Part shown: one piece after another, positions 15,230 through 30,689 of the stretch | Position numbering within the stretch: the first letter of the stretch is position 1 | How the letters are laid out: each line of letters opens with the position of its first letter | Assembly (NCBI GenBank): GCA_008933835.1 | Contig: WBUG01000009.1 | Location: 1-64,000, forward strand | DNA from: Bacteroidota bacterium | GTDB taxonomy: Bacteria; Bacteroidota; Ignavibacteria; UBA10030; UBA8401 | DNA length: 64,000 bases | Direction: 5' to 3' | Notes under the pieces: generated by a model | The model's database searches: none | Told to the model about the DNA's origin: nothing | The model's input: only the letters and a program-made list of their open reading frames with translations | Made by a program: the position numbers and the translations under genes

Positions 15230-16000
15230 ATGAAGCGTTCAGCACTGATTCTCCTCTACGGAATATGTGCCGCGACGGTATTGCAGGCACAACGTCCGCC
15301 GGATACAACCTCTCATCACAGCGCCGCTGTGAAAGAAGATCCCGCTGCGAAAAAATTTGTACGGGAATGCTCCTCCTGTCATACGATCGGCGGAGGGAAA
15401 ATGAAAGGACCGGACCTGATCACGGCGATCACCTGGAAGCCGGAAGATCTTGCCAAAGCGGTGAAGAAGATGGAGAAGGAGGTCGGTGCATTGAGCGAAC
15501 AAGTGGTGACCGATCTTGTTGCGTTGATGAAGGATCCCGCGCTCAAACCCCGTCTCGCAGCAGAGGAACAGCGTCTGATCCAATCCCGCCGCGCATTGCT
15601 TGCACCTCCTGATGCATCCATCGGTCATGATCTATTCTGGGGAACGCGTCGGTTCCAGAACGGCGGAATGAACTGCAGCGCCTGTCATGTCGTGAATGGT
15701 TTGGGAGGAACGCTTGGTCCTGATCTGACTCCGGCTGAAAAGAAGATGGGGGAGGTCGCGCTCATCTCGGCGGTGGAAAAAGCGGCGTACAAGGTGATGG
15801 AGCCGCATTACCGTTCACGTCCGGTCACCCCTCAGGAAGCGCTGCATCTTACTGCCTATCTAGCCCAAGTACCGCTCACCCGTACCAATGCTGAAGTCTC
15901 CTTTCATATGCTCGCTGTCCTTGCTGCAGTCGGACTGAGCGGTGCGATCGTCGCACTGTATGCCGCTGCCGGAAAAAAACAATCACCGTCGGGGAACTAA
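15230..16000 (+). CDS. Diheme cytochrome c with C-terminal membrane anchor (NarC-like position)
   Basis: 256 residues: signal peptide (1-20), first heme motif CSSCH (C47-H51), second CSACH (C149-H153), and one C-terminal transmembrane helix (about 226-246). The heme domains therefore face the periplasm. A gene for a diheme cytochrome c also opens the Thermus narCGHJIK operon, where it helps electron flow to the nitrate reductase; this one may do the same or carry electrons from the Rieske/cytochrome b module to the downstream CuA enzyme. Start at 15230 has GAGGA upstream; the frame is open further left but lacks a ribosome site and signal peptide. Confidence 0.87.
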
Positions 16001-16004
16001 CGTT

Positions 16005-19000
16005 ATGGCATGGATCAAAGACCTCTTCGCACCGGATCAGCGCAGCTGGGAAGAATTCTATCGCAACCGCTGGCAATACGACAAGGTCGTGCGGAGTACG
16101 CACGGGGTGAACTGCACCGGGTCCTGCAGCTGGAACATCTTTGTAAAAGGGGGGATCGTTACCTGGGAGATGCAGGCGCTGGATTATCCAGTGCTGCAGA
16201 ACCAGGAACTTCCGCCATATGAACCGCGCGGCTGCCAGCGCGGCATCTCTTATTCCTGGTATCTCTACAGCCCGATCCGCGTGAAGTATCCGTACATCCG
16301 CGGCGTGCTGGCGGACCTGTGGCAGGAGGCGAAATCGGCGCATCCGGACGACAATCTCGAAGCGTGGCGTTCCATTGTGACCGATCCGGAGAAACGCTCC
16401 GCACTGCACCGATCGCGCGGCAAGGGGGGATTCCGCCGAATGTTGTGGGATGAAGCATATGAAATCATGGCTGTTGCAAATATCTATACGGTGCTGGAGC
16501 ATGGCTCGGACCGCATTATCGGGTTCTCTCCTATTCCCGCAATGTCCATGCTGAGCTATGCCGGCGGTTCCCGGCTCATGCAACTGATGGGCGGAGTGAG
16601 TATGTCCTTCTATGATTGGTACTGCGATCTTCCCCCCGCATCGCCGGAAGTATGGGGCGAGCAGACGGATGTCGCAGAGAGCGCGGACTGGTACAATTCC
16701 AAATATATCGCCACTGTTGGGTCCAATGTGCTCATGACGAGAACGCCCGACTCGCATTTCCTGGTGGAAGCACGCCATCGCGGATCCAAAGTCGCCGTTT
16801 TCTCTCCCGACTTCTCCCAAACCTCCAAAGTGGCGGATGAATGGTTTCCGATTCATCAGGGACAAGACGGCGCGTTCTGGATGGCGGTGAATCATGTGCT
16901 GCTCCGTGAATATTATATCAAGAAACAGGTCCCGTACTTCCTGCAGTACCTCCAGCGGTACAGCGATGCGCCGTTCCTGGTGGTGATGGACCGGCAGGAG
17001 AACGGAACATACCGTCCCGGGAAATTGCTCCGCGCAAGCCAGCTCCATTCCACTGCGCATGTGGAGAATGCCGAATGGAAGACCTTTGTGTGGGATGCAA
17101 AGACCGATTCGCCGGTGCTTCCGCCCGGCACGGTGGGACACCGCTGGCAATCCAAAAAAGGGGAATGGAATCTTCAGGCGATGAATTCGCAGACCGGGGA
17201 TTCCATCGAACCGGTCCTCTTCTTTTCGAACGGCGCACAGGATCTGAAGGTCGAGCTGGACGATTTCAGCGACGGATCCATGGTGAAGCAATTCTCCGTT
17301 GCCGTCCCGTGCCGGCAGCTGAAGACGAATGACGGCGAGCTCTATGTGACGACCGCGTTCGAATTGATGCTTGCACAGTTCAATGTGAACAGGAGCGGGG
17401 ATGACCGGTATGAAGAGAGTATGGAGCTGCCGTTCACACCGAAATGGCAGGAACAATTCACCGGTATCAACTCTGCTGATGTGATCCGCTTTGCGAAGGA
17501 ATGGGGACATACCGCGGAACGGACCAATGGACAGGTCAGTGTTATCATCGGCGCGGGAGTGAATCACTGGTATCATAACAATCTCATTTACCGCTCCATC
17601 ATCTCCGCACTGATCTTCTCCGGTGCAGTGGGAGTGAACGGCGGGGGATTGAACCATTATGTGGGACAGGAAAAATTAGTGCCGCAGGCCTCGTGGGGTC
17701 CGATCGCGTTCGGCACGGACTGGGGCGGACCCCCGCGATTGATGAATACTCCTTCGTTCCATTATATGCATTCCAGTCAATGGCGGTATGACGGGAAATT
17801 CTCGGAAGTGTGTCCGGTGAACGACTCCGGCCATCCCATGGCGAACGGACATACGGCCGATAAGCAGGCACTGGCGGTGCGGAGCGGATGGCTGCCGTGT
17901 TTCCCGCAGTTCAATAAGAGCAACTTCGCCGTGGTGAAGGAAGCGATCGCGGCCGGTGCGAAGGATGATGCCGGCATCATTGAGTATGTGAAGGAGCAAT
18001 TGAAAAGCGGGAAATTAAGGTCTTCCATGGAGGATCCCGATAATCCCGCCAGCTTCCCTCGAGTGTGGTATATCTGGAGAGGGAACGCCCTGCTCTCGTC
18101 CGCCAAAGGACATGAGTATTTCCTGAAGCATTATCTCGGCACGCATCATAACTCCATCGCTGAAGAACAAGCCAAGGATAATGTCGAGGATGTGCTCTGG
18201 AAGGAACAGGCACAAAACGGGAAGTTCGATCTGATCGTGGACATCAATTTCCGGATGGATTCGTCCGCGCTCTATTCTGATATCGTCCTGCCGACCGCAA
18301 CCTATTACGAGAAGAATGATCTCAGCTCCACCGATATGCATTCGTTCATCCATCCGTTGCAGGCGGCCGTTCCGCCGGCATGGGAATCGCGGTCGGACTG
18401 GGAGATCTTCAAAGGGATCGCCAAGAAAGTTTCCGAGCTGGCCGTACGGTACATTCCCGAACCGCTCACGGATATCGTTGCCACTCCGCTGATGCATGAT
18501 ACGCCCGCTGAGATTGCGCAGCCGCATGTGAAGGATTGGAAGAAAGGGGAGTGTGCCATGATCCCCGGAACGACAATGCAGAATCTGAAGATCGTCAAAC
18601 GCGATTATGTGAACCTCTATAACAGGTTCATCTCTGCCGGACCCAACTTCAGGAATAACGGACTCGGCATCCATGGCACCACGTATATGGTGGACGACGT
18701 GTATGACGAATATCTGAAGGCGAAACCGACACATTCGTTCGGCGGCGGCACCTATCCTTCGCTGAAGGAAGATAAGGATGCCTGCAATGTCATCCTTTGG
18801 TTCGCAGCCGAGACGAACGGCGAACTCGCCTATCGCGCGTACGCCTCTGAATCCAAAAAGACCGGTATCGACCATACGCACCTTGCCGAAGGGTCGCGGA
18901 ACATCCGCATCACGTTCGAAGATATCTCCACGCAGCCCCGCCGGACCCTCACCACGCCGTTCTGGACCGGCATTACGAACAACGGCCGTGCCTACTCCGC

Positions 19001-19628
19001 GTATTGTCAGAACGTTGAAGAATTTGTCCCGTGGAGGACATTGACGGGACGACAGCATCTCTATCTGGATCACGATGCGTACATCGCGTACGGCGAGCAT
19101 CTTCCCACATACAAACCGCGCGCTGACCGGGGCACATTGCGGGACCTGATGAAATCGAATCTCGACGGCGAAGCGGTGGTGCTGAACTATCTTACACCGC
19201 ACGGGAAATGGCATATCCATTCCACCATGGGAGACACGCTGCGGATGGAAACACTGTCCCGCGGCATGGAACCGATCTGGGTCTCGGACAAGGATGCCGA
19301 ACGGCTCGGCATTAAGGATAATGATTGGGTGGAAGTGTACAACGATCACGGCGTTGTCTGCACGCGTGCCGTCGTTAGTCACCGCATCCCCGGCGGCATG
19401 TGCATGATCTATCATGCGCCAGAGCGGACCCTCTCCGTCCCGAAATCGCAGGAGCGGGGGAACCGGCGCGCGGGCGGACACAATTCGCTCACGCGCGTGC
19501 GGCTGAAACCGCTTTTCATGATCGGCGGATATGCACAATTCACCTACGGATTCAATTATTGGGGTCCGCAGGGAGTGAACCGTGATACGTTCGTCGCTGT
19601 CCGCAAGATGAAGAAACTTAACTGGTAA
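16005..19628 (+). CDS. narG: Respiratory nitrate reductase alpha subunit
   Basis: 1207 residues, matching cytoplasmic NarG, the bis-MGD molybdenum subunit that reduces nitrate to nitrite. The N-terminal [12 protein letters not shown] and EPRGCQRG give the His/Cys ligands of the FS0 cluster (H33, C37, C41, C77). [15 protein letters not shown] holds D204, aligned with the molybdenum-ligating aspartate of E. coli NarG. Long identities with NarG continue, for example [15 protein letters not shown] and [17 protein letters not shown]. There is no twin-arginine signal, so the enzyme faces the cytoplasm. Starts five bases after the cytochrome gene. Needs the mobA product encoded next door. Confidence 0.96.
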
Positions 19629-19653
19629 CCGACGCACTTACTCAGGAGCACGT

Positions 19654-21150
19654 ATGGATGTACGTTCGCATGTTTCCATGGTTTTCCACCTCGACAAATG
19701 CATCGGGTGCCACACCTGCAGCGTTGCCTGCAAGAACATCTGGACCGACCGCCAGGGGGCGGAGTACATGTGGTGGAACAATGTGGAGACCAAGCCGGGC
19801 ACCGGTTATCCCGGGAAATGGGAGGATCAGAAGAAGTTCAAAGGAGGATGGAAGAAGGACGGCGATGAACTGAAACTGAACTCGCAGAACAAATCCGATT
19901 ACTTCTTCAAGCTCTTCTACAATCCCAATCAGCCGACGCTGGAGGACTATTACGAGCCGTGGACCTATCAGTACAAGGACTTGTTCGATGCGCCGGCGGG
20001 GGATGACCAACCGACGGCGATCCCGGTCTCGCAGATCACCGGTGAGTATATCGATATCAAGAAGGGACCGAACTGGGATGACGATCTCTCCGGTTCGCCG
20101 GAATATGCCGCCAACGATGTGAATCTCGATTCGCTCACTCCGCAAGAGCGTTCGCAGCTGCTGGAGATCGAGCGGCTGGCGATGTTCTATCTTCCGCGCA
20201 TCTGCAACCATTGCGCGAATCCGAGCTGTGTGGCGGCATGTCCTTCCGGTGCGATCTACAAGCGGGGAGAGGACGGCATCGTGCTGGTGAATCAGCAGAC
20301 GTGCCGCGGATGGCGTGCCTGCGTCACCGCGTGCCCCTACAAGAAAGTCTATTACAACTGGAAAACCGGTAAATCCGAAAAATGTATCCTTTGTTATCCG
20401 CGTCTTGAAACCGGTCAGGCACCTGCCTGTTTCCATTCCTGCGTGGGGCGGATCCGGTATTTCGGTGTGCTGCTGTATGATGCGGATCGGGTGAAAGAGG
20501 CGATGAGCGTATCCGAACACAATCTGGTAGAGTCGCAGCGACGGATCTTCCTCGATCCGTTCGATCCGGAAGTGGTCGCGAAGGCAAAAGCGAACGGCAT
20601 CACGCAAGAGATCATCGATGCCGCGCAGAAATCACCGGTGTATAAGTACGTGGTGAAGTGGAAGATGGCCCTGCCGCTCCATGTGGAGTACCGCACCATG
20701 CCGATGCTCTTCTACGTTCCGCCCCTTCTGCCGGTGCTCGGAAAGAGCACCAATGATGTCTATGCCAATAGTCTGGACGGGACAGAATTCTCCGCGATGC
20801 TCGACAACGCACGCATTCCGCTCAAATATCTGGCGAGTCTGTTCAGCGCCGGGAATGAAGAGACGATCCGCGAGATCATGAAAAAGATGCTCGCTGTCCG
20901 CGCGGTGAAACGGTCCGAACAGCTCCGCGAAGAGCTGAATGAACCGACCAAGCGGATGGTGAAGGAGACCGGACTGACGCCGGAGGAGATCCAGGATATC
21001 TACCACCTCACCGCACTGAGCACGTTCAATGAACGATTCGTCATTCCCGAAACGCGGCGCGAGCAGGCGATCGAGGAGATGATCGATCCCGAATTCTGCA
21101 AAGGAAACTGCGGCCTGGGATTCAACGAGATGCCGCCGAAGATCTCATAA
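19654..21150 (+). CDS. narH: Respiratory nitrate reductase beta subunit
   Basis: 498 residues carrying four iron-sulfur clusters that pass electrons from NarI to NarG. The first cysteine set is CIGCHTCSVAC (C16, C19, C22, C26); others are CNHCANPSCVAACP, CRGWRACVTACPY and CILCYPR. The tryptophan in CRGW replaces a cysteine, as in the known 3Fe-4S site of NarH. Segments such as WWNNVETKPGTGYPGKWEDQKKFKGGW align closely with E. coli NarH. Good GGAGC spacing to the ATG. Second structural gene of the operon. Confidence 0.96.
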   Translation: MDVRSHVSMVFHLDKCIGCHTCSVACKNIWTDRQGAEYMWWNNVETKPGTGYPGKWEDQKKFKGGWKKDGDELKLNSQNKSDYFFKLFYNPNQPTLEDYYEPWTYQYKDLFDAPAGDDQPTAIPVSQITGEYIDIKKGPNWDDDLSGSPEYAANDVNLDSLTPQERSQLLEIERLAMFYLPRICNHCANPSCVAACPSGAIYKRGEDGIVLVNQQTCRGWRACVTACPYKKVYYNWKTGKSEKCILCYPRLETGQAPACFHSCVGRIRYFGVLLYDADRVKEAMSVSEHNLVESQRRIFLDPFDPEVVAKAKANGITQEIIDAAQKSPVYKYVVKWKMALPLHVEYRTMPMLFYVPPLLPVLGKSTNDVYANSLDGTEFSAMLDNARIPLKYLASLFSAGNEETIREIMKKMLAVRAVKRSEQLREELNEPTKRMVKETGLTPEEIQDIYHLTALSTFNERFVIPETRREQAIEEMIDPEFCKGNCGLGFNEMPPKIS

Positions 21151-21164
21151 GAAAGGAACAACGA

Positions 21165-21707
21165 ATGACCATCATGGAACTCTTTGCCGGAGCTTTGAGC
21201 TACCCGGATGAACGGATGCCGCAATTGCGGGCAGAATTGCTCGGCAGGACAGAAGAAGAACTCCCCGCTGCTGTCGATTCGCTGCGCCGGTATCTGGAAG
21301 CCACCGCCGGAATGTCCCGCGCGTCGCTGTGTGAACTCTATACACGCACGTTCGATCTGATGGCGGTCTGCTCCCCGTATGCCGGGATCCATCTGTACGG
21401 CGAGGACAACTATAAACGGGGTGGACTCATGGCGCGGCTGAAAGAGGCGTTCGCCGCTCAGCATTTTGATGCCGGCAATGAATTACCGGACCATCTTGCA
21501 GTGCTTCTGCGGTACAGCGCCGTTGCGCCAGCGGATGAAGCGGAGGAACTCCGTGACTATCTGCTGCGGGGACCGGTGGAAACGATGGTTACGATCCTCT
21601 CGAAAACGCAGAATCCCTACGCTCATCTCCTTACGGCTCTACAGACGGAACTGTCTGTGCCGAACCGGATGATCGTTCAGGATCACTCCATTACGGAGGG
21701 AGTATGA
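21165..21707 (+). CDS. narJ: Nitrate reductase assembly chaperone
   Basis: 180 residues of the NarJ/TorD chaperone family, which holds apo-NarGH until the molybdenum cofactor and clusters are inserted and it docks on NarI. Typical segments: LYTRTFDLMAVCSPYAGIHLYGEDNYKRGGLMARLKEAF and ELPDHLAVLLRY. AAAGGAAC precedes the ATG; the stop overlaps the next gene by ATGA. Confidence 0.92.
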   Translation: MTIMELFAGALSYPDERMPQLRAELLGRTEEELPAAVDSLRRYLEATAGMSRASLCELYTRTFDLMAVCSPYAGIHLYGEDNYKRGGLMARLKEAFAAQHFDAGNELPDHLAVLLRYSAVAPADEAEELRDYLLRGPVETMVTILSKTQNPYAHLLTALQTELSVPNRMIVQDHSITEGV

Positions 21708-23029
21708 TCATTCAATTCCTCTTCATCGGTCTTCCGTACGCGGCGATCGCCGCGGTGGTGATCGGGACGTATTACCGTCTCACCAGAAAGGAATATACCG
21801 TCTCATCCCTTTCCTCTCAATTCCTGGAAAGCAAGTATCTCAAGTGGGGATCAGTACCGTGGCATCTTGGTATTCTGGTGATCTTCGTCGGTCACCTCGT
21901 GCCGTTCCTTCTGCCGGATCTCTGGGCCGATCTCGTGAAACACCGTTCGATTCTGATCGCACTGGAAGCGGCCGGATTCGTTGCCGGTGTAATGTGTGTG
22001 CTGGGACTGGTCGTGCTCATCATCCGGCGTATTATCACCAGCACGCTTCAACTGGTGACCAAGCCGTTGGACTTCGTTGTCTACGTTCTGTTATTGTCAC
22101 AAATCCTTCTTGGTCTGGTCACCGCGTATTCGTACCGTTACGGTTCGGTCTGGGCGCCCGGGACGGTCTATGCCTATCTCTTTAGTGTTCTGCGTTTGAG
22201 TCCGGATATGACCTACGTGCAGGACATGCCGTTCGTCATCCAGGCGCACATCGCCCTTGCGTGGGTCATCCTCATGCTCATCCCCTTCACACGGCTCATT
22301 CATATGTTCAGCATCCCGCTGGAGTATCTGTTCCGTCTGCCGCAGAAGGTGGTCTGGACGAACGAAGTGCGCTGGAACCGGCGCTCCGAGCGGGCGCAGT
22401 ATATGGAATCACGGCGGTATTTCTTCCGGGGTGTGGCGGGAGTGACCGGTGCGGCGGGACTGCTTTCATTCGGTGTTCTCGAGAAATCCGGACATTACTT
22501 CCAGGGACAGACGCTTGATGATGCAAAAGAAGCGGCCTTGCTGGAAAAACGGTTGAAGCGGATGAAACTGACGACGGAAGAAAAGAGTTACGAGCTGGAG
22601 CGATTGAAGAACGAAGCGATCTACATTGCGGATCTGAAGGAACTGCAGCCGGCCACGGGGAAATATTTCATCGATTATGAGATGCGGCCGGCATTGGCGT
22701 TCCGTGATGCGAAAGGACTCCCCAATCTCTTATCGGCAAAATGCACGCATCTCGGCTGCACGGTCGGTAAGGATGTGGACGGACAGGGAAGGATCGTCTG
22801 TCCGTGTCACGTCTCCTATTTCGATATCCACACCGGCGTGCCGCAGGCCGGTTCACCGACCGAGATACCGCTCGAACATCTTGCATGGCATGTGCGGGCA
22901 TCGGACGGTACGATCGTTGCGCACGGTGCGCCGGACGGTACGGTGGCAACGACAGCGGCGTATGATGCGGCGAAGAGTGAAACATACAAAGTGTTCATCA
23001 TCAAATCTAAGGGAGTGACAGTCGCATGA
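21704..23029 (+). CDS. NarI-Rieske fusion: nitrate reductase gamma subunit joined to a Rieske 2Fe-2S domain
   Basis: 441 residues. Residues 1-220 form a complete NarI: five membrane helices with all four heme ligands in the E. coli spacing (H54 and H64; H182 and H200). Then follows a basic stretch with a twin-arginine-like motif SRRYFFRG (236-243) and a hydrophobic helix (243-258), a charged, probably helical linker (270-310), and a Rieske domain with CTHLGC (C347, H349, C352) and CPCHVS (C366, C368, H369). The NarI C-terminus is cytoplasmic, so the added Tat-type helix would place the Rieske domain in the periplasm. The next gene is its expected partner, cytochrome b. No stop, frameshift or internal start separates the two parts. 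Confidence 0.93.
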   Translation: MIIQFLFIGLPYAAIAAVVIGTYYRLTRKEYTVSSLSSQFLESKYLKWGSVPWHLGILVIFVGHLVPFLLPDLWADLVKHRSILIALEAAGFVAGVMCVLGLVVLIIRRIITSTLQLVTKPLDFVVYVLLLSQILLGLVTAYSYRYGSVWAPGTVYAYLFSVLRLSPDMTYVQDMPFVIQAHIALAWVILMLIPFTRLIHMFSIPLEYLFRLPQKVVWTNEVRWNRRSERAQYMESRRYFFRGVAGVTGAAGLLSFGVLEKSGHYFQGQTLDDAKEAALLEKRLKRMKLTTEEKSYELERLKNEAIYIADLKELQPATGKYFIDYEMRPALAFRDAKGLPNLLSAKCTHLGCTVGKDVDGQGRIVCPCHVSYFDIHTGVPQAGSPTEIPLEHLAWHVRASDGTIVAHGAPDGTVATTAAYDAAKSETYKVFIIKSKGVTVA

Positions 23030-24129
23030 TCAGGAGAACCATGACATCGGTCTGGGAATTCCTTGCGGAACGGTTCCCGGTGGAAAAGATGGACCTGCAG
23101 CATATGGTCCAGGGGAAAACGGTGCCCGTTCACCGCATGAGCTGGGCGTATTATCTCGGCGGTATCACATTGTTCCTGTTCCTGATCCAGGTCGTGACCG
23201 GATTGATGCTGCTCTTTTATTATCAGCCGACGGTGAACGATGCCTTTGAATCGGTGCAGTATATCACCGAAGAGGTCCCCGGCGGACACATCATCCGTAA
23301 CCTGCACGCCTGGTCCGCATCGGCGATGATCTTTTTCGTGCTGGCGCATCTGGTGACCACCTTCGCAATGAAGGCTTTCGCCAAACCGCGCGAAGTGACT
23401 TGGCTGGCGGGAATAGGACTGCTGCTCATCACATTCGGCTTCGGTTTTTCCGGGTATCTGCTCCCGTGGAATCAGATCGCCGTGAACGCTACGAAGATCG
23501 GACTGCAATCCATCGAAGCGATGGGGCAGTACCTGCCGGCGTCGATGGCGCACCTGCCGACGCAATTGAAGGAGATCATCCAGGGGGAAGCAAGCGTCGG
23601 TCAGGCAACATTGAGCCGTTTCTTCGTGCTGCATGTTGTGGTGCTGCCGCTCATCTCGTTCGGACTGATCGGCATCCATCTCTTCAGTGTACAGCTGCAC
23701 GGCATGAGCAAAGGGATCCCGGGTGAAGTGAAGCGGACGGAAAAATTCTTCCCGACGTTCATCATCAAGGATTTCTCCACCTGGGGAGCGGTCTTCTTCA
23801 TCATGTTCATCCTGGCGCTCACGCTGCCGTTCGATGCCTTCTTCTCCTTCCCGCTGATGGATCCGTACAATGCGCGGGGCTCCACACCGGATGGGATCAA
23901 ACCCGAGTGGTATTTCTACATGGTGTATTATCCGCTGGAAATGCTCCCGTACTGGCTTGTGATGCTGGCGGTGAACGGCGGCATCGTCGTTCTGCTGCTC
24001 GCTCCGTGGATCTTTAAACACACGTCGATCAAAACGCTGCGGATGCTCGCCGTCGGATTCGCACTCTATTTTGTCATCATCACACTCTTCGGTGATGTGA
24101 TCTATCATCTTGTGAAAGGGGGTGCGTGA
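23026..24129 (+). CDS. Cytochrome b of a Rieske/cytochrome b (bc-type) complex
   Basis: 367 residues, polytopic. Four heme-b histidines: H94/H108 and H203/H218. The 14 and 15 residue spacings are those of cytochrome b6. The protein continues into a subunit-IV-like part with the quinol-site motif PEWYF, so it is a long, fused form. The position of the cysteine that binds heme c-n in cytochrome b6 (FYCLGG) is tyrosine here (AYYLGG), so that extra heme is probably not covalently bound. Starts with an ATGA overlap with the NarI-Rieske gene, strongly suggesting the two products work together in quinol oxidation. Confidence 0.93.
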   Translation: MIRRTMTSVWEFLAERFPVEKMDLQHMVQGKTVPVHRMSWAYYLGGITLFLFLIQVVTGLMLLFYYQPTVNDAFESVQYITEEVPGGHIIRNLHAWSASAMIFFVLAHLVTTFAMKAFAKPREVTWLAGIGLLLITFGFGFSGYLLPWNQIAVNATKIGLQSIEAMGQYLPASMAHLPTQLKEIIQGEASVGQATLSRFFVLHVVVLPLISFGLIGIHLFSVQLHGMSKGIPGEVKRTEKFFPTFIIKDFSTWGAVFFIMFILALTLPFDAFFSFPLMDPYNARGSTPDGIKPEWYFYMVYYPLEMLPYWLVMLAVNGGIVVLLLAPWIFKHTSIKTLRMLAVGFALYFVIITLFGDVIYHLVKGGA

Positions 24130-25946: not shown

Positions 25947-26825
25947 GCCGGACGACCGCAGAGTACGTTGGGTACGATCCATTGCGAGTGTTAAGGTTCG
26001 TCCATGAGAGAGTGTTTTTCGGTGAACACAAAGTGTTAACGATACCCCCATTTATCCCGGTGCGGGAACACGGTGCGTGGGTCATGATCATCGCCCCTAT
26101 GGTGTCCGGCATGCTGTTTGCACCGGAACTCTCTTGGAACATGCTCCTGTACGGCATTGCCGTACTCTGTGTGTTTATGGCTTATCCGTCCGCCGAACAA
26201 TTGTTCCGTATTTGGTCCGGTGCGCATCGTACCGCGGAGGAACGATGTGGGGCAAGAGTGTGGACCGCCGTGTTTGTGCTGACAGGAGTAGCGGCAGTGA
26301 TTCCGTTACTGTGGCAGGGGTACGGGATTAGGATCTCTTGCCGTCTTGTTCTTCGGTCTCCACGTTGTCATTGTCAGAATCGTGCACGACAAGCTTTTCG
26401 GTGACCTTCCTGCGGTCATCGCTGCCACACTGTCCGGTCCCGGAATGGTGTATGTCGGAGGTGAAAATGAGCTGTTCTCACTACTTGAGGCCTGGCTTCC
26501 CCCGACATTATTTATTTTATTGTCCGTAACGGTGGTGCATGTTCATCTTTTCCTGAAAAACAACACGGAGGTCCGGCGCACTTCGTCTGGTATGCGTCGT
26601 CCGGCGTTGTGGCTGACGGTGTGGTGCTGGGGAACCGGTCTTACAGTATCGATCATTGCTGAACGGATCCCGGTGATACTGCTGCTGGCGTACGTGCCCT
26701 TGACAGCGGAGTTCCTCGCGGTCGTTATCCGTCGCCAGCCGGCACGGTCGCTGAAATCGCTCGGCTTCCGGTTATTGGTTCATGCCGTGGCGTTTCTGGC
26801 GCTGGCGGCATTCGTCATCCTCTAA
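25943..26825 (+). pseudogene. YwiC-like membrane protein gene, interrupted by a frameshift
   Basis: The first frame begins with ATGA overlap (25943) and encodes PPFIPVREHGAWVMIIAPMVSGMLF, the hallmark start of YwiC-like proteins, up to about VAAVIPLLWQG (near 26320). The natural continuation (GLGSLAVLFFGLHVVIVRIVHDKLFGD... to 26825) lies in another frame. Skipping one base after the GGGG run at 26317-26320 restores a single protein of about 290 residues with several membrane helices. ywiC of Bacillus subtilis also lies in its nar-fnr gene region, which supports the assignment. The shift may be a true mutation or a sequencing error in the G run. Confidence 0.75.
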
Positions 26826-26852: not shown

Positions 26853-27371
26853 ATGACTGATTTCTCACTGCAATGGATAGTATTTCTTGCATGGTCGGTG
26901 CTGTCGATCATCGTCTTAACGGTCTTTTATATGATGTATCGGCAGTCCCGCCGGGATCCCTCGACCATGACGTATGATGTGATCAATAAAAAGCGATTCC
27001 GATTTTTCTACGGGACGATCGTTTTTTTACTGATTGCATTTTTCGCGGCAGTTTCCGGAGCACCCTATGCTGAACGGGAGACGCCTGAGGTGATCATCGG
27101 AGTGAAATCAAAAATGTTTCTGTTTGAAATGACGCAGGATACGGTTGGAACAAACCAATTGGTGGAGTTCCGGATCACGACCGAGGATGTGACGCATGGC
27201 TTCGGCATCTATGATTCGACCGGGACGATCCTGGGACAGGTACAGGCCATGCCGAAATATACGAACCGGCTCCGCATCCGGTTCCCTGAACCAGGGACAT
27301 ACAGTATCTTATGTCTGGAATACTGCGGTACGCTCCATCACCAGATGCGTTCCACCATAACTGTGAGATGA
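26853..27371 (+). CDS. Heme-copper oxidase/NO reductase subunit II with CuA site
   Basis: 172 residues: two N-terminal membrane helices (about 8-28 and 50-70), then a periplasmic cupredoxin domain. The CuA ligands are all present: H115 (VTHGF) and the motif CLEYCGTLHHQM (C154, E156, C158, H162, M165). CuA takes electrons from cytochrome c, so the associated catalytic subunit should be a cytochrome c-dependent enzyme. The stop overlaps the subunit I start by ATGA. Confidence 0.9.
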   Translation: MTDFSLQWIVFLAWSVLSIIVLTVFYMMYRQSRRDPSTMTYDVINKKRFRFFYGTIVFLLIAFFAAVSGAPYAERETPEVIIGVKSKMFLFEMTQDTVGTNQLVEFRITTEDVTHGFGIYDSTGTILGQVQAMPKYTNRLRIRFPEPGTYSILCLEYCGTLHHQMRSTITVR

Positions 27372-28825
27372 TAATCATGAAAGAACCCCTCTTTTCCGTT
27401 CCCATCAGCAATTTTCTGCTCCGCAGGGTGACACTGGTGTGGCTGATGCTGTCGCTGGTCTTGTTCCTCATCCCGGCGGTGTTCGGTTTGTTGATGCGTT
27501 CGATCCAGGCGCAGATCCCCGGAATATCCGCTCAATACTTCTACCATTTCCTCACATCGCATGGCTTGCTGATGGTGGGGATCTGGTTCACAACGTCACT
27601 GGCACTGTTATCGTTCGCTTTTAGTTCGTACGTCTCGCCGAATCCGCTGCTGATCATCATTGCCATCGCCCTGATCGTGGTCGGTGCTCTGATGTCGCTC
27701 TGGGCGGTCTTCATCGGCGACATGGCCACCGGATGGTATTTTCTCTACCCGTTGCCGTTACGATTGGGGACAGTGACAGGAAGAGTCATGTTCTTTGCCG
27801 CGATCGGTGTTCTGGGCGTAGGGTGGCTTCTCTGGTGTATCGCTCTGTTCTTAGCCGTTGCTCAGCGGTATACCCTGCGGGAGGCTCTCGGTTGGCATTA
27901 TATCGCGAAAGAGACAGCACCGAATGTACCGCCGATGATCATGATCGCCGGGGTTAGCCTTGTTGCCGTGATCATCTGTTTGCTCATGGCGGTGATCCTG
28001 CTGCTGCTGTTCGCGCTGGAATTCCTCAGTACCGCCTCCAACGATGCCCTGTTGATGAAGAATCTGGTATTTGTCTTCGGGCACACCCTTGTGAATATGA
28101 ACCTGTATCTGGTGATCGCTTTGGTCTATGAATATTTCCCCAAATACGGCGGGGGAGAATTCAAGAACAGCCGGATGCTTGCCATCGTCTGGAATAGCGT
28201 TCTGTGTATCGTCCTCTTCGCGTACTTCCACCATTTATACATGGACTTTGCCCAGCCCTCTGTCATACAGTATGTCGGACAATTTGCGTCGTATGGGGCA
28301 GGGCTGATGGCGGCCACGTTTACCATTTTTTCCGTACTGGCGTTTGTGATGACGCACCGGATGGAATGGTCCTTCTCCTCCATCGCGACGTTCACGGCCA
28401 TTGCGATGTGGACGATCGGCGGTATTGCTGCGGTGATCGATGCGACCATTCCGGTCAATTTTAAGATGCACAATACCTTGTGGGTGCCGGCACATTTCCA
28501 TTCCTACTATTTCACCGGTGCCGTGATGATGATGCTGGCATTCATGTGGACCATTGCCATGGAGGTCAGCGGACGGACAGAACAGACATGGATCCGCCGC
28601 GTAGTTCTCCCCTTGCTGTTTATCGGCGGCGGAGGATTCGTGCTGATGTTCTATCTCAGCGGTATGCAATCCGTACCGCGGCGGTATGCCCTGTATCCTG
28701 CACTGTTGGGTCATGGAACGGCGCTGTCGTACGTTGCCGTGGTCTTTATCCTGATCTTCCTGCTGGCATATCTTGTGCTTGCCGGTGTGCTGATCACCAG
28801 AATGATCCGCGGATTACGGCGGTGA
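27368..28825 (+). CDS. Heme-copper superfamily subunit I, candidate NO reductase
   Basis: 485 residues, about 12-14 membrane helices. Metal ligands: H65 (TSHG, low-spin heme), H239 (GHTLVN), H288/H289 (YFHHLY) for the active-site copper or iron, and H376/H378 (VPAHFHSY) for the two hemes. In oxygen reductases of the A and B types the helix VI motif HPEVY carries a tyrosine cross-linked to the first histidine; here the equivalent residue is N243 (HTLVN). Loss of that tyrosine is characteristic of NO reductases within the superfamily. Neighbours (nitrate reductase, SCO, RIC) agree. I start at 27368 because of the ATGA overlap; a second ATG lies at 27377. A divergent oxidase remains possible. 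Confidence 0.82.
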   Translation: MIIMKEPLFSVPISNFLLRRVTLVWLMLSLVLFLIPAVFGLLMRSIQAQIPGISAQYFYHFLTSHGLLMVGIWFTTSLALLSFAFSSYVSPNPLLIIIAIALIVVGALMSLWAVFIGDMATGWYFLYPLPLRLGTVTGRVMFFAAIGVLGVGWLLWCIALFLAVAQRYTLREALGWHYIAKETAPNVPPMIMIAGVSLVAVIICLLMAVILLLLFALEFLSTASNDALLMKNLVFVFGHTLVNMNLYLVIALVYEYFPKYGGGEFKNSRMLAIVWNSVLCIVLFAYFHHLYMDFAQPSVIQYVGQFASYGAGLMAATFTIFSVLAFVMTHRMEWSFSSIATFTAIAMWTIGGIAAVIDATIPVNFKMHNTLWVPAHFHSYYFTGAVMMMLAFMWTIAMEVSGRTEQTWIRRVVLPLLFIGGGGFVLMFYLSGMQSVPRRYALYPALLGHGTALSYVAVVFILIFLLAYLVLAGVLITRMIRGLRR

Positions 28826-29604
28826 GAACTGCGCTGTGGAACATCCTGGCCGTGCTGTTCGTGGTGCGGCCTGGTACCGCCGAGGAAGCGGTCCAAAATC
28901 TGTACCGTCGCGTTCCGGACATCGCGGTCATCACATCGGACGGTCGGACGGAGTCGTTGTCCGCACTCAGTAAGGGAATGCCGGTGATGATCACGATCGC
29001 CAACAGCCGCTGCACCGGCATCTGCTATCCCTGGCTCTTTCAGCTGCGAGACCGGGTATCGGAGTCCGGTGCGGAACTGAGCGGTATCCGGTTCATCATC
29101 CTCAGTATCGATGAACGGGACACCCCGATGAACGTCGCGGCCATGGCAGAGATGCTGAAAATGCATCATGACAAGCGATGGCTGTTCGGTACCGTGCGGA
29201 CGGAAGATCGGGATCGCTTTGCGGAGGCATTCGGTTTCACGTACCGGTTCGATTCACTTCGCAGTCAATACGACCATCCTCCGATGCTGGCGGGAGTGAA
29301 TGCGAACGGCGTGGTGCTGCGGATCCTCAGTTCCATGGAGCTGACGCCGACAGAGTTCTGGCTGCTGGTGCGGGAGATGCATGATGAATTCATTCCGATG
29401 ATGAAAGCGACCGAGGCGAGCTGGGTCACCTGTTTCACCTACGATCCGCTGAGCAATCAGTATTCTATCAGCTGGGGAGTGGTGATGCTGTATCTGCCGG
29501 TACTCGCCGGTTTCGCATTGGTATGGTGGATTTTCCGGAGCTCCGGTCGCAGGCGTCGTCAACAGTCCCCGGGGTTGCACACGGATCTGAATGGTTTATC
29601 GTGA
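28822..29604 (+). CDS. SCO1/SenC-like copper chaperone with C-terminal anchor
   Basis: 260 residues beginning with GTG (overlap GTGA) and a signal peptide. The thioredoxin-fold domain has the copper motif CTGIC (C64, C68) and the third ligand H152 (QYDHPP), as in SCO proteins that load CuA. Unlike many SCO proteins it ends with a transmembrane helix (WGVVMLYLPVLAGFALVWWIF) and a basic tail. Its position directly after the CuA-enzyme genes makes CuA assembly the likely job. Confidence 0.87.
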   Translation: MRTALWNILAVLFVVRPGTAEEAVQNLYRRVPDIAVITSDGRTESLSALSKGMPVMITIANSRCTGICYPWLFQLRDRVSESGAELSGIRFIILSIDERDTPMNVAAMAEMLKMHHDKRWLFGTVRTEDRDRFAEAFGFTYRFDSLRSQYDHPPMLAGVNANGVVLRILSSMELTPTEFWLLVREMHDEFIPMMKATEASWVTCFTYDPLSNQYSISWGVVMLYLPVLAGFALVWWIFRSSGRRRRQQSPGLHTDLNGLS

Positions 29605-29888
29605 TGGAACGGCAATGGTTCAAATGGCTTCCTGTGATCGATGCCGAACTCTGCACATCGTGCCGTGCGTGTGTTGATGCGTGCGGACCGGGATGTCTGA
29701 CGATCCCGGAACAGCGCACGGCTGTACTGACCAATCCGGACGCGTGCGGCAGTGAAGAGCATTGTATCGCCCCCTGTCCTGAACACTGCATTACGATGGA
29801 ATGGATTCCGTGGCGAGGAGATATCGGCCGCGGAGTCTGGACCTACCGGGATCCGGTCCATCGTGCGAACGAACCCGCGGGACAGTGA
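29604..29888 (+). CDS. Small ferredoxin-like 4Fe-4S protein
   Basis: 94 residues with no signal peptide. The first cluster motif is CTSCRACVDACGPGC (C17, C20, C23, C27, C31). The second cysteine group, CGSEEHCIAPCPEHC (C48, C54, C58, C62), has unusual spacing for a standard ferredoxin. Start by TGATG overlap with the SCO gene. Possible electron donor to a cytoplasmic protein such as the following RIC protein; partner not known. Confidence 0.78.
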   Translation: MERQWFKWLPVIDAELCTSCRACVDACGPGCLTIPEQRTAVLTNPDACGSEEHCIAPCPEHCITMEWIPWRGDIGRGVWTYRDPVHRANEPAGQ

Positions 29889-29951
29889 ATGTCTCGATTT
29901 ACAATTTCCCTCCACAATTACACAACGACAACAGAAAGGAATACCGGCGAC

Positions 29952-30689
29952 ATGGAGCACAACATACTCACAGAGAAAATGATCAACGATATCGTCACAG
30001 AGGACTACCGCACCGCGGCGATCTTTGAAAAGTATTCGCTCGATTTTTGCTGCAACGGCGGTGTGACCATCGAAGCGGCCTGCCGGGAAAAGAACATCGA
30101 TCCCGCACCGGTGCTCGCCGAATTGAGCCGGTTGTTCGAAGCGGCGGGTCCGGCTGTCGATACGGCCGCTTCCATGGAGCCTGATGCACTCATCGACCAT
30201 ATCGTATCGGTGCATCACGCGTATGTAGCACGGATGATCCCGGTGATCTATACGCATACACAGAAGGTCGCTGCCGTTCATGGAGGCCGGCATCCGGAAG
30301 TGGTGAAGATCGCCGATCTCTTTTCCTCGGTCGCGGAAGAACTGATCCATCACATGAAGAAGGAAGAGATGATCCTCTTCCCGTATATCGAACGGCTTGT
30401 TGCCGCGAAGCGGACCGGCACGCCGATCTCTGCTCCGCCCTTCGGAACCGCAAAGAATCCCATCGCCATGATGGAGCGGGAACATCAGGATGCCGGGGAC
30501 GGACTCTATCAGATACGCGAATTGTCGGCGAAATATCAGCCGCCGGCAGATGCATGCACCACCTATCGAGTGTCATTCAAGGAATTGCAGGAATTCGAAG
30601 AGGATCTGCACCGGCATGTTCATCTGGAGAACAACATCCTTTTTCCGTCAGCCATTCGGTTGGAAGAGGAGCTGACGTCCGTGCGCTGA
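29952..30689 (+). CDS. Iron-sulfur cluster repair di-iron protein (RIC/ScdA/YtfE)
   Basis: 245 residues. The N-terminal ScdA domain has AAIFEKYSLDFCCNGG (C33, C34), followed by a hemerythrin-like four-helix bundle with ligands in SVHHAYV, HHMKKEE, EREHQD and HVHLENNILFP. RIC proteins repair iron centres damaged by NO or peroxide and are usually induced by NO. This fits the last position in a nitrate/NO respiration cluster. I start at 29952 (AAAGGAA upstream); an ATG at 29889 directly after the ferredoxin stop would add 21 residues not typical of the family. Confidence 0.92.
   Translation: MEHNILTEKMINDIVTEDYRTAAIFEKYSLDFCCNGGVTIEAACREKNIDPAPVLAELSRLFEAAGPAVDTAASMEPDALIDHIVSVHHAYVARMIPVIYTHTQKVAAVHGGRHPEVVKIADLFSSVAEELIHHMKKEEMILFPYIERLVAAKRTGTPISAPPFGTAKNPIAMMEREHQDAGDGLYQIRELSAKYQPPADACTTYRVSFKELQEFEEDLHRHVHLENNILFPSAIRLEEELTSVR

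Follow-up and report, generated by a model that had tools for sequence, protein, structure and literature searches.

Organisation of the locus

The window, which is the whole stretch of 64,000 nucleotides that was analysed, carries the genes of a CuA-bearing subunit II and of a heme-copper subunit I, followed on the same strand by an SCO/SenC-like gene, a small ferredoxin-like gene and a gene of the RIC type, with a nitrate reductase cluster upstream (Table 1). The first three genes are tightly packed, since the stop codon of subunit II overlaps the start codon of subunit I (ATGA) and the SCO-like gene, which starts with GTG, overlaps the stop codon of subunit I (GTGA). The 4Fe-4S ferredoxin-like gene probably lies on the same transcript as these three genes, and no homologue of its product was found in the relatives' loci that were compared. 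Residues of subunit I are counted here from the ATG at 27377; adding 3 gives the numbering of the first-pass annotation, which started at the ATG at 27368, so that its N243 and Y286 correspond to N240 and Y283.

Table 1. Coordinates of the features discussed, in positions of the window
Feature	Coordinates	Strand	Remarks
narGHJ, NarI-Rieske fusion and cytochrome b, upstream of the CuA genes	15999-24129	+	NCBIfam models, Rieske domain
Subunit II (CuA)	26853-27371	+	172 aa, intact
Subunit I (heme-copper superfamily, putative sNOR type)	27368-28825	+	intact; alternative ATG 27377
Helix VI active-site motif GHTLVN	28079-28096	+	residues 235-240 from ATG 27377
SCO/SenC-like copper chaperone	28822-29604	+	Pfam SCO1-SenC, operon position
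Small 4Fe-4S ferredoxin-like protein	29604-29888	+	Pfam Fer4
RIC (YtfE/ScdA-type) iron-sulfur cluster repair di-iron protein	29889-30689	+	TIGR03652

The first-pass annotation had pointed to nitrate reductase, RIC and SCO as context in favour of NO as substrate, and this context was recovered with most of its members above the curated thresholds. NarG, NarH and NarI exceed the NCBIfam cut-offs (TIGR01580, TIGR01660 and TIGR00351), and RIC, which is a marker of NO stress, reaches 239.8 bits against a cut-off of 204.7. NarJ falls slightly below its cut-off, as does the SCO-like protein (Pfam SCO1-SenC, 22.4 bits against 22.8), in which the CxxxC motif is present (NSRCTGICYPW). Within the nitrate reductase cluster, a Rieske domain is fused to the C-terminus of NarI (21704-23029) and a cytochrome b gene follows (23026-24129), which is an unusual link between a nitrate reductase and a bc-type complex. 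Between this cluster and subunit II, the reading frame of a YwiC-like gene (26033-26825) is split by a frameshift near 26317-26328, either through decay or through an assembly error, and the gene is intact in a near relative (L028:3614-4429).

The CuA subunit and the active site

Subunit II was recognised by the NCBIfam CoxB model (E=8e-17) and by Pfam COX2 (22.1 bits, cut-off 22), and consists of two N-terminal transmembrane helices (residues 9-27 and 51-69) and a cupredoxin domain. Its CuA site is complete (DVTH ... CLEYCGTLHHQM, with the spacing C-x3-C-x3-H-x2-M), as had been claimed from the first reading, and the nearest solved chains in the PDB are CuA domains of the ba3 type. Among the subunits II of the relatives, the C-x3-C-x3-4-H-x2-M motif is retained in 83 of 84, and the upstream His pattern is matched in 74 of 84, the exceptions printed retaining the histidine and differing in the next residue. 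Additionally, a CxxCH motif was observed in 20 of the 84 CuA subunits (loci L027-L106), and the one that was checked (L045) carries an N-terminal cytochrome c domain; both features point to cytochrome c as the electron donor. An SCO homologue lies immediately downstream in 78 of 80 relatives, and the order CuA, subunit I, SCO was found in 67 of 80 family loci.

Subunit I is short and 12-TM-like, and matches Pfam COX1 with E=3e-41. Its six metal histidines (H62, H236, H285, H286, H373 and H375) all align with the ligands of the Thermus thermophilus ba3 oxidase, whereas the cross-linked Tyr237 of that enzyme aligns with N240, the last residue of the GHTLVN motif in which H236 is the metal ligand. 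The early observation that the histidines are kept and the helix VI tyrosine is replaced was thus upheld by the ba3 alignment. Asparagine occupies position 240 in 88/88 homologues, and therefore N240 does not represent a chance or sequencing change, while the A-type controls carry tyrosine there; the eight sNOR references aligned likewise have asparagine at the cross-link position (8/8). Invariant across the 88 homologues are N240, Y244, Y251, D290, G301, Q302, W345 and D355.

Other tyrosines were considered as substitutes for the missing residue. Y283, which had been named as a possible cross-link partner, is phenylalanine in 31 of 88 homologues and hence is not an obligatory cross-link. The tyrosine of cbb3 (C-type) oxidases, which lies in helix VII, six residues before the HH pair, has no counterpart, as V279 occupies that position. 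Regarding the ba3 K-channel, which bears on the expectation that sNOR has no conserved proton channel, the alignment places asparagine at Y237, V, L or I at Y244 and mostly alanine at S309, and the equivalents of Y248 and T312 are retained in the window family. The AF2 model of subunit I (pLDDT 85) confirmed the fold, with low confidence for residues 359-372, around H365. In Foldseek, aa3 oxidases ranked first for this predicted model (TM about 0.8), a ranking that is best read as mirroring the structures that have been solved and not function.

Phylogenetic position and comparison with known families

The position of subunit I was evaluated in a maximum-likelihood tree, of which the careful version comprises 61 rows (LG+C20+F+G4). 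The references were the sNOR candidate, CcoN and cNOR NorB of the Ruegeria pomeroyi megaplasmid, the qNOR of Cupriavidus necator pHG1, the ba3 oxidases of Haloarcula and Thermus, A-type oxidases and the PF00115 genes from twelve genomes that were located by way of named loci; bNOR and nNOR references were outside this set. The A, B, C, qNOR and eNOR (Gln) groups each formed a starred clade, and cNOR a weaker one (94/47). The window family formed a clade of its own (99/91), which joined the sNOR clade and Thermomicrobium at 100/100 to the exclusion of A, B, C, eNOR, cNOR and qNOR. The tree check proposed with the first-pass annotation therefore placed subunit I outside all the Tyr-bearing oxygen-reductase clades sampled (A, B and C) and beside sNOR. 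Neither this outcome nor the lack of conservation of Y283 refuted the initial reading.

In approximately unbiased (AU) tests, grouping the window family with B was 170 log units worse (p=5e-69) and grouping it with A was 96 log units worse (p=5.7e-6), and with asparagine in place of the helix VI tyrosine neither an A-type nor a B-type oxygen reductase was retained as a candidate. A cbb3 oxygen reductase was set aside because the C clade is separate and valine stands at the place of the tyrosine. The same applies to cNOR and qNOR, given the asparagine instead of the Glu signature and the separation from the NorB clade, and to eNOR, a relative of the B family with CuA, which has glutamine at the cross-link position and forms a separate 100/100 clade, sister to ba3. 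A topology that unites the sNOR lineage, B and eNOR, as in published work, was not rejected (p=0.195). Automatic annotation would label these genes as an ordinary cytochrome c oxidase, an identity that is extremely improbable: although the best automatic matches are the CtaD/CoxA and CoxB models and relatives on plasmids carry the label of a cbb3-type or cytochrome c oxidase, the NCBIfam oxidase models match the window genes far under their curated cut-offs, the cross-link tyrosine is absent and the AU tests reject both placements.

The sNOR clade contains Ruegeria pomeroyi, formerly Silicibacter, and a betaproteobacterium (G370) in which an AMO match of 380 bits indicates an ammonia oxidiser. 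Previous studies reported sNOR, with its asparagine, from Betaproteobacteria and Silicibacter (PMC8756737), and norSY-senC-orf1 was found in several ammonia oxidisers (PMC4940428). The sNOR (norSY-senC) of ammonia oxidisers and R. pomeroyi shares with the window enzyme the asparagine, the metal ligands and the invariant Y244 and D290, and its genes for the CuA subunit and SCO are arranged as in the window. However, the R. pomeroyi and window subunits I are 31% identical, the motif is GHTLVN or GHVLVN in the window family and GHVFINA in sNOR, and, unlike norSY-senC loci, the window genes have no adjoining formate/nitrite transporter or orf1. It is rather unlikely that the window family represents a very widespread sister family apart from sNOR proper, with an Asn-type CuA enzyme in which Y244 would take part in the chemistry and NO, or possibly O2, would be reduced by a variant mechanism.

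The naming is also informed by Methylomirabilis, for which one qNOR, one sNOR, one gNOR and two NODs have been described (PMC6094997) and sNOR/norSY is listed (PMC6094997, PMC8906906). In the Methylomirabilis genome that was searched, the only Asn-type heme-copper gene found belongs to the window family, and thus, by elimination, the sNOR name covers the window clade. The sNOR of this genus (Damo_0801-0802) accordingly falls inside the clade, a match made by elimination among the heme-copper oxidase genes of another Methylomirabilis genome and not by locus tag. Two heme-copper homologues, L136 (G300, Methylomirabilis) and L147 (G296), were seen to have lost the helix VI metal histidine (GLDLIADG instead of GHxxxY) and probably belong to the proposed gNOR family. 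A further divergent homologue (L158:1003-2565, minus strand, G301) has HNLME on helix VI and SGHFM replacing HFH, such that one low-spin heme histidine appears, from the sequence, to be replaced by methionine.

It is very unlikely that the window genes belong instead to another proposed NOR family, either the Asn-type bNOR/CuANOR or nNOR, and in that case the reaction would still be NO reduction. bNOR also carries asparagine at the cross-link position (PMC8756737 Table A4; PMC3475470), and the sequences and signature of nNOR were outside the comparison. However, bNOR, or CuANOR type I, purified from Bacillus azotoformans and sharing the CuA subunit with the window enzyme, is ba3-like and so far known from Bacillota only; by description it is set apart by a long subunit I (gene of 1707 bases, 13 TM), a one-TM subunit II and a small third peptide, whereas in the window enzyme subunit I is short, subunit II has two TM helices and the tree position is with sNOR (100/100). 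The 'type II qCuANOR' of B. azotoformans (BAZO_04705-04710), also compared by description, comes closer, with asparagine, a short 12-TM subunit I, a two-TM CuA subunit II and a linked SCO, as in the window, but has a linked extra protein of 4-5 TM, none of which was seen beside the window genes (PMC3475470).

Genomic context and proposed function

A scan of species genomes yielded at least 521 confirmed relatives, distant ones included, and the window family was found in Bacteroidota, Acidobacteriota, Methylomirabilota, Myxococcota, Spirochaetota, Planctomycetota and others. N-oxide markers (RIC, nitrite/formate transporter, Nar, qNOR and NirS genes) were present within about 5 kb in 24 of 80 family loci and in none of 36 A/C-type oxidase loci that were handled identically (Fisher p=3.7e-5), and when the transporter was left out the counts were 12 and 0 (p=0.009), in a comparison where the loci are phylogenetically non-independent and the oxidase control is unmatched by lineage. 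The remaining 56 of the 80 family loci have no such marker within about 5 kb. The two loci nearest in sequence share 68-70% identity with the window; at L027/L159 (68%), genes for a Crp/Fnr-like regulator, a hemerythrin-like protein, RIC, CuA, subunit I, SCO and qNOR are consecutive, the first two being named from sequence by eye. In three family loci, a gene is 55-62% identical to the cytochrome d1-type nitrite reductase of Ruegeria. A membrane protein of about 425 aa, weakly COX1-like (Pfam 35 bits) and perhaps NnrS-like or heme-copper-related, also recurs beside family genes (L054, L058, L077, L095 and L097).

The host genome has only three COX1 genes, which correspond to an A-type oxidase, a cbb3 oxidase and the window subunit I. 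Searches for NirK, NirS and NosZ in this genome found none, the NosZ matches being cross-matches of CuA domains, and no cNOR, qNOR or other NOR was found besides the window enzyme. A single NrfA gene is present (G000:C41:42769-44040, L173), which together with narGHI makes the host look like a nitrate ammonifier. The combination of Nar and NrfA without NirK, NirS, NosZ, cNOR or qNOR suggests that the enzyme protects a nitrate ammonifier against NO, and the source of NO in this host is indirect, since NirK and NirS are absent.

Taken together, the tree position beside sNOR, the invariant asparagine and the N-oxide context favour the candidate CuA-type NOR reading given at first, and the window genes probably encode a CuA nitric oxide reductase of the sNOR type (norSY-senC-like), as judged from sequence comparison. 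The statement that several less-studied NOR families keep CuA was also right and could be narrowed to sNOR. This family has already been proposed and is usually misannotated as cytochrome oxidase, and the window enzyme is, by this assignment, a further member.

It is distinctly unlikely that the window enzyme is instead a member of the sNOR lineage that reduces O2 with high affinity, working without the His-Tyr cofactor and perhaps with Y244 or Y288 as an alternative redox or proton group. Such a role would fit with Y244, which in the alignment is shared without exception by the window family, sNOR and Thermomicrobium and is missing from A, B and eNOR, and with the sNOR of Nitrosomonas europaea, which is induced under O2 limitation and for which a role as O2 reductase was suggested (PMC6967387). 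On the other hand, NORs are told apart from oxidases by the missing cofactor (PMC3475470), A-type and cbb3 oxidases are already present in the host, and N-oxide neighbours are far commoner than at oxidase loci.

In the NO reductase proposed here, electrons from cytochrome c, or from a cupredoxin, would enter at CuA in subunit II and pass through the low-spin heme (H62/H375) to the binuclear heme/metal-B centre (H373; H236/H285/H286), where two NO would be converted into N2O. Without the His-Tyr cofactor, this centre would lack the fourth electron/proton for cleavage of the O-O bond. Considering that several ba3 proton-channel residues are lost, little or no proton pumping is expected, and coupling would be weak if present at all. 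SCO would supply copper to CuA, the enzyme would most likely clear NO leaked from nitrite reduction or made by neighbours, and RIC would mend Fe-S clusters damaged by NO.

No sNOR has been biochemically characterised, and the family stands as a proposed NO reductase (PMC11388526); given this, a defined operon in a clear NO-stress setting represents a usable target. In standard libraries such genes match cytochrome c oxidase models only, and NO reduction and N2O production are consequently easily overlooked across many genomes. The host of the window genes is likely a nitrate ammonifier and lacks a denitrifying nitrite reductase; in such an organism, a CuA NOR would both protect against NO and produce N2O.
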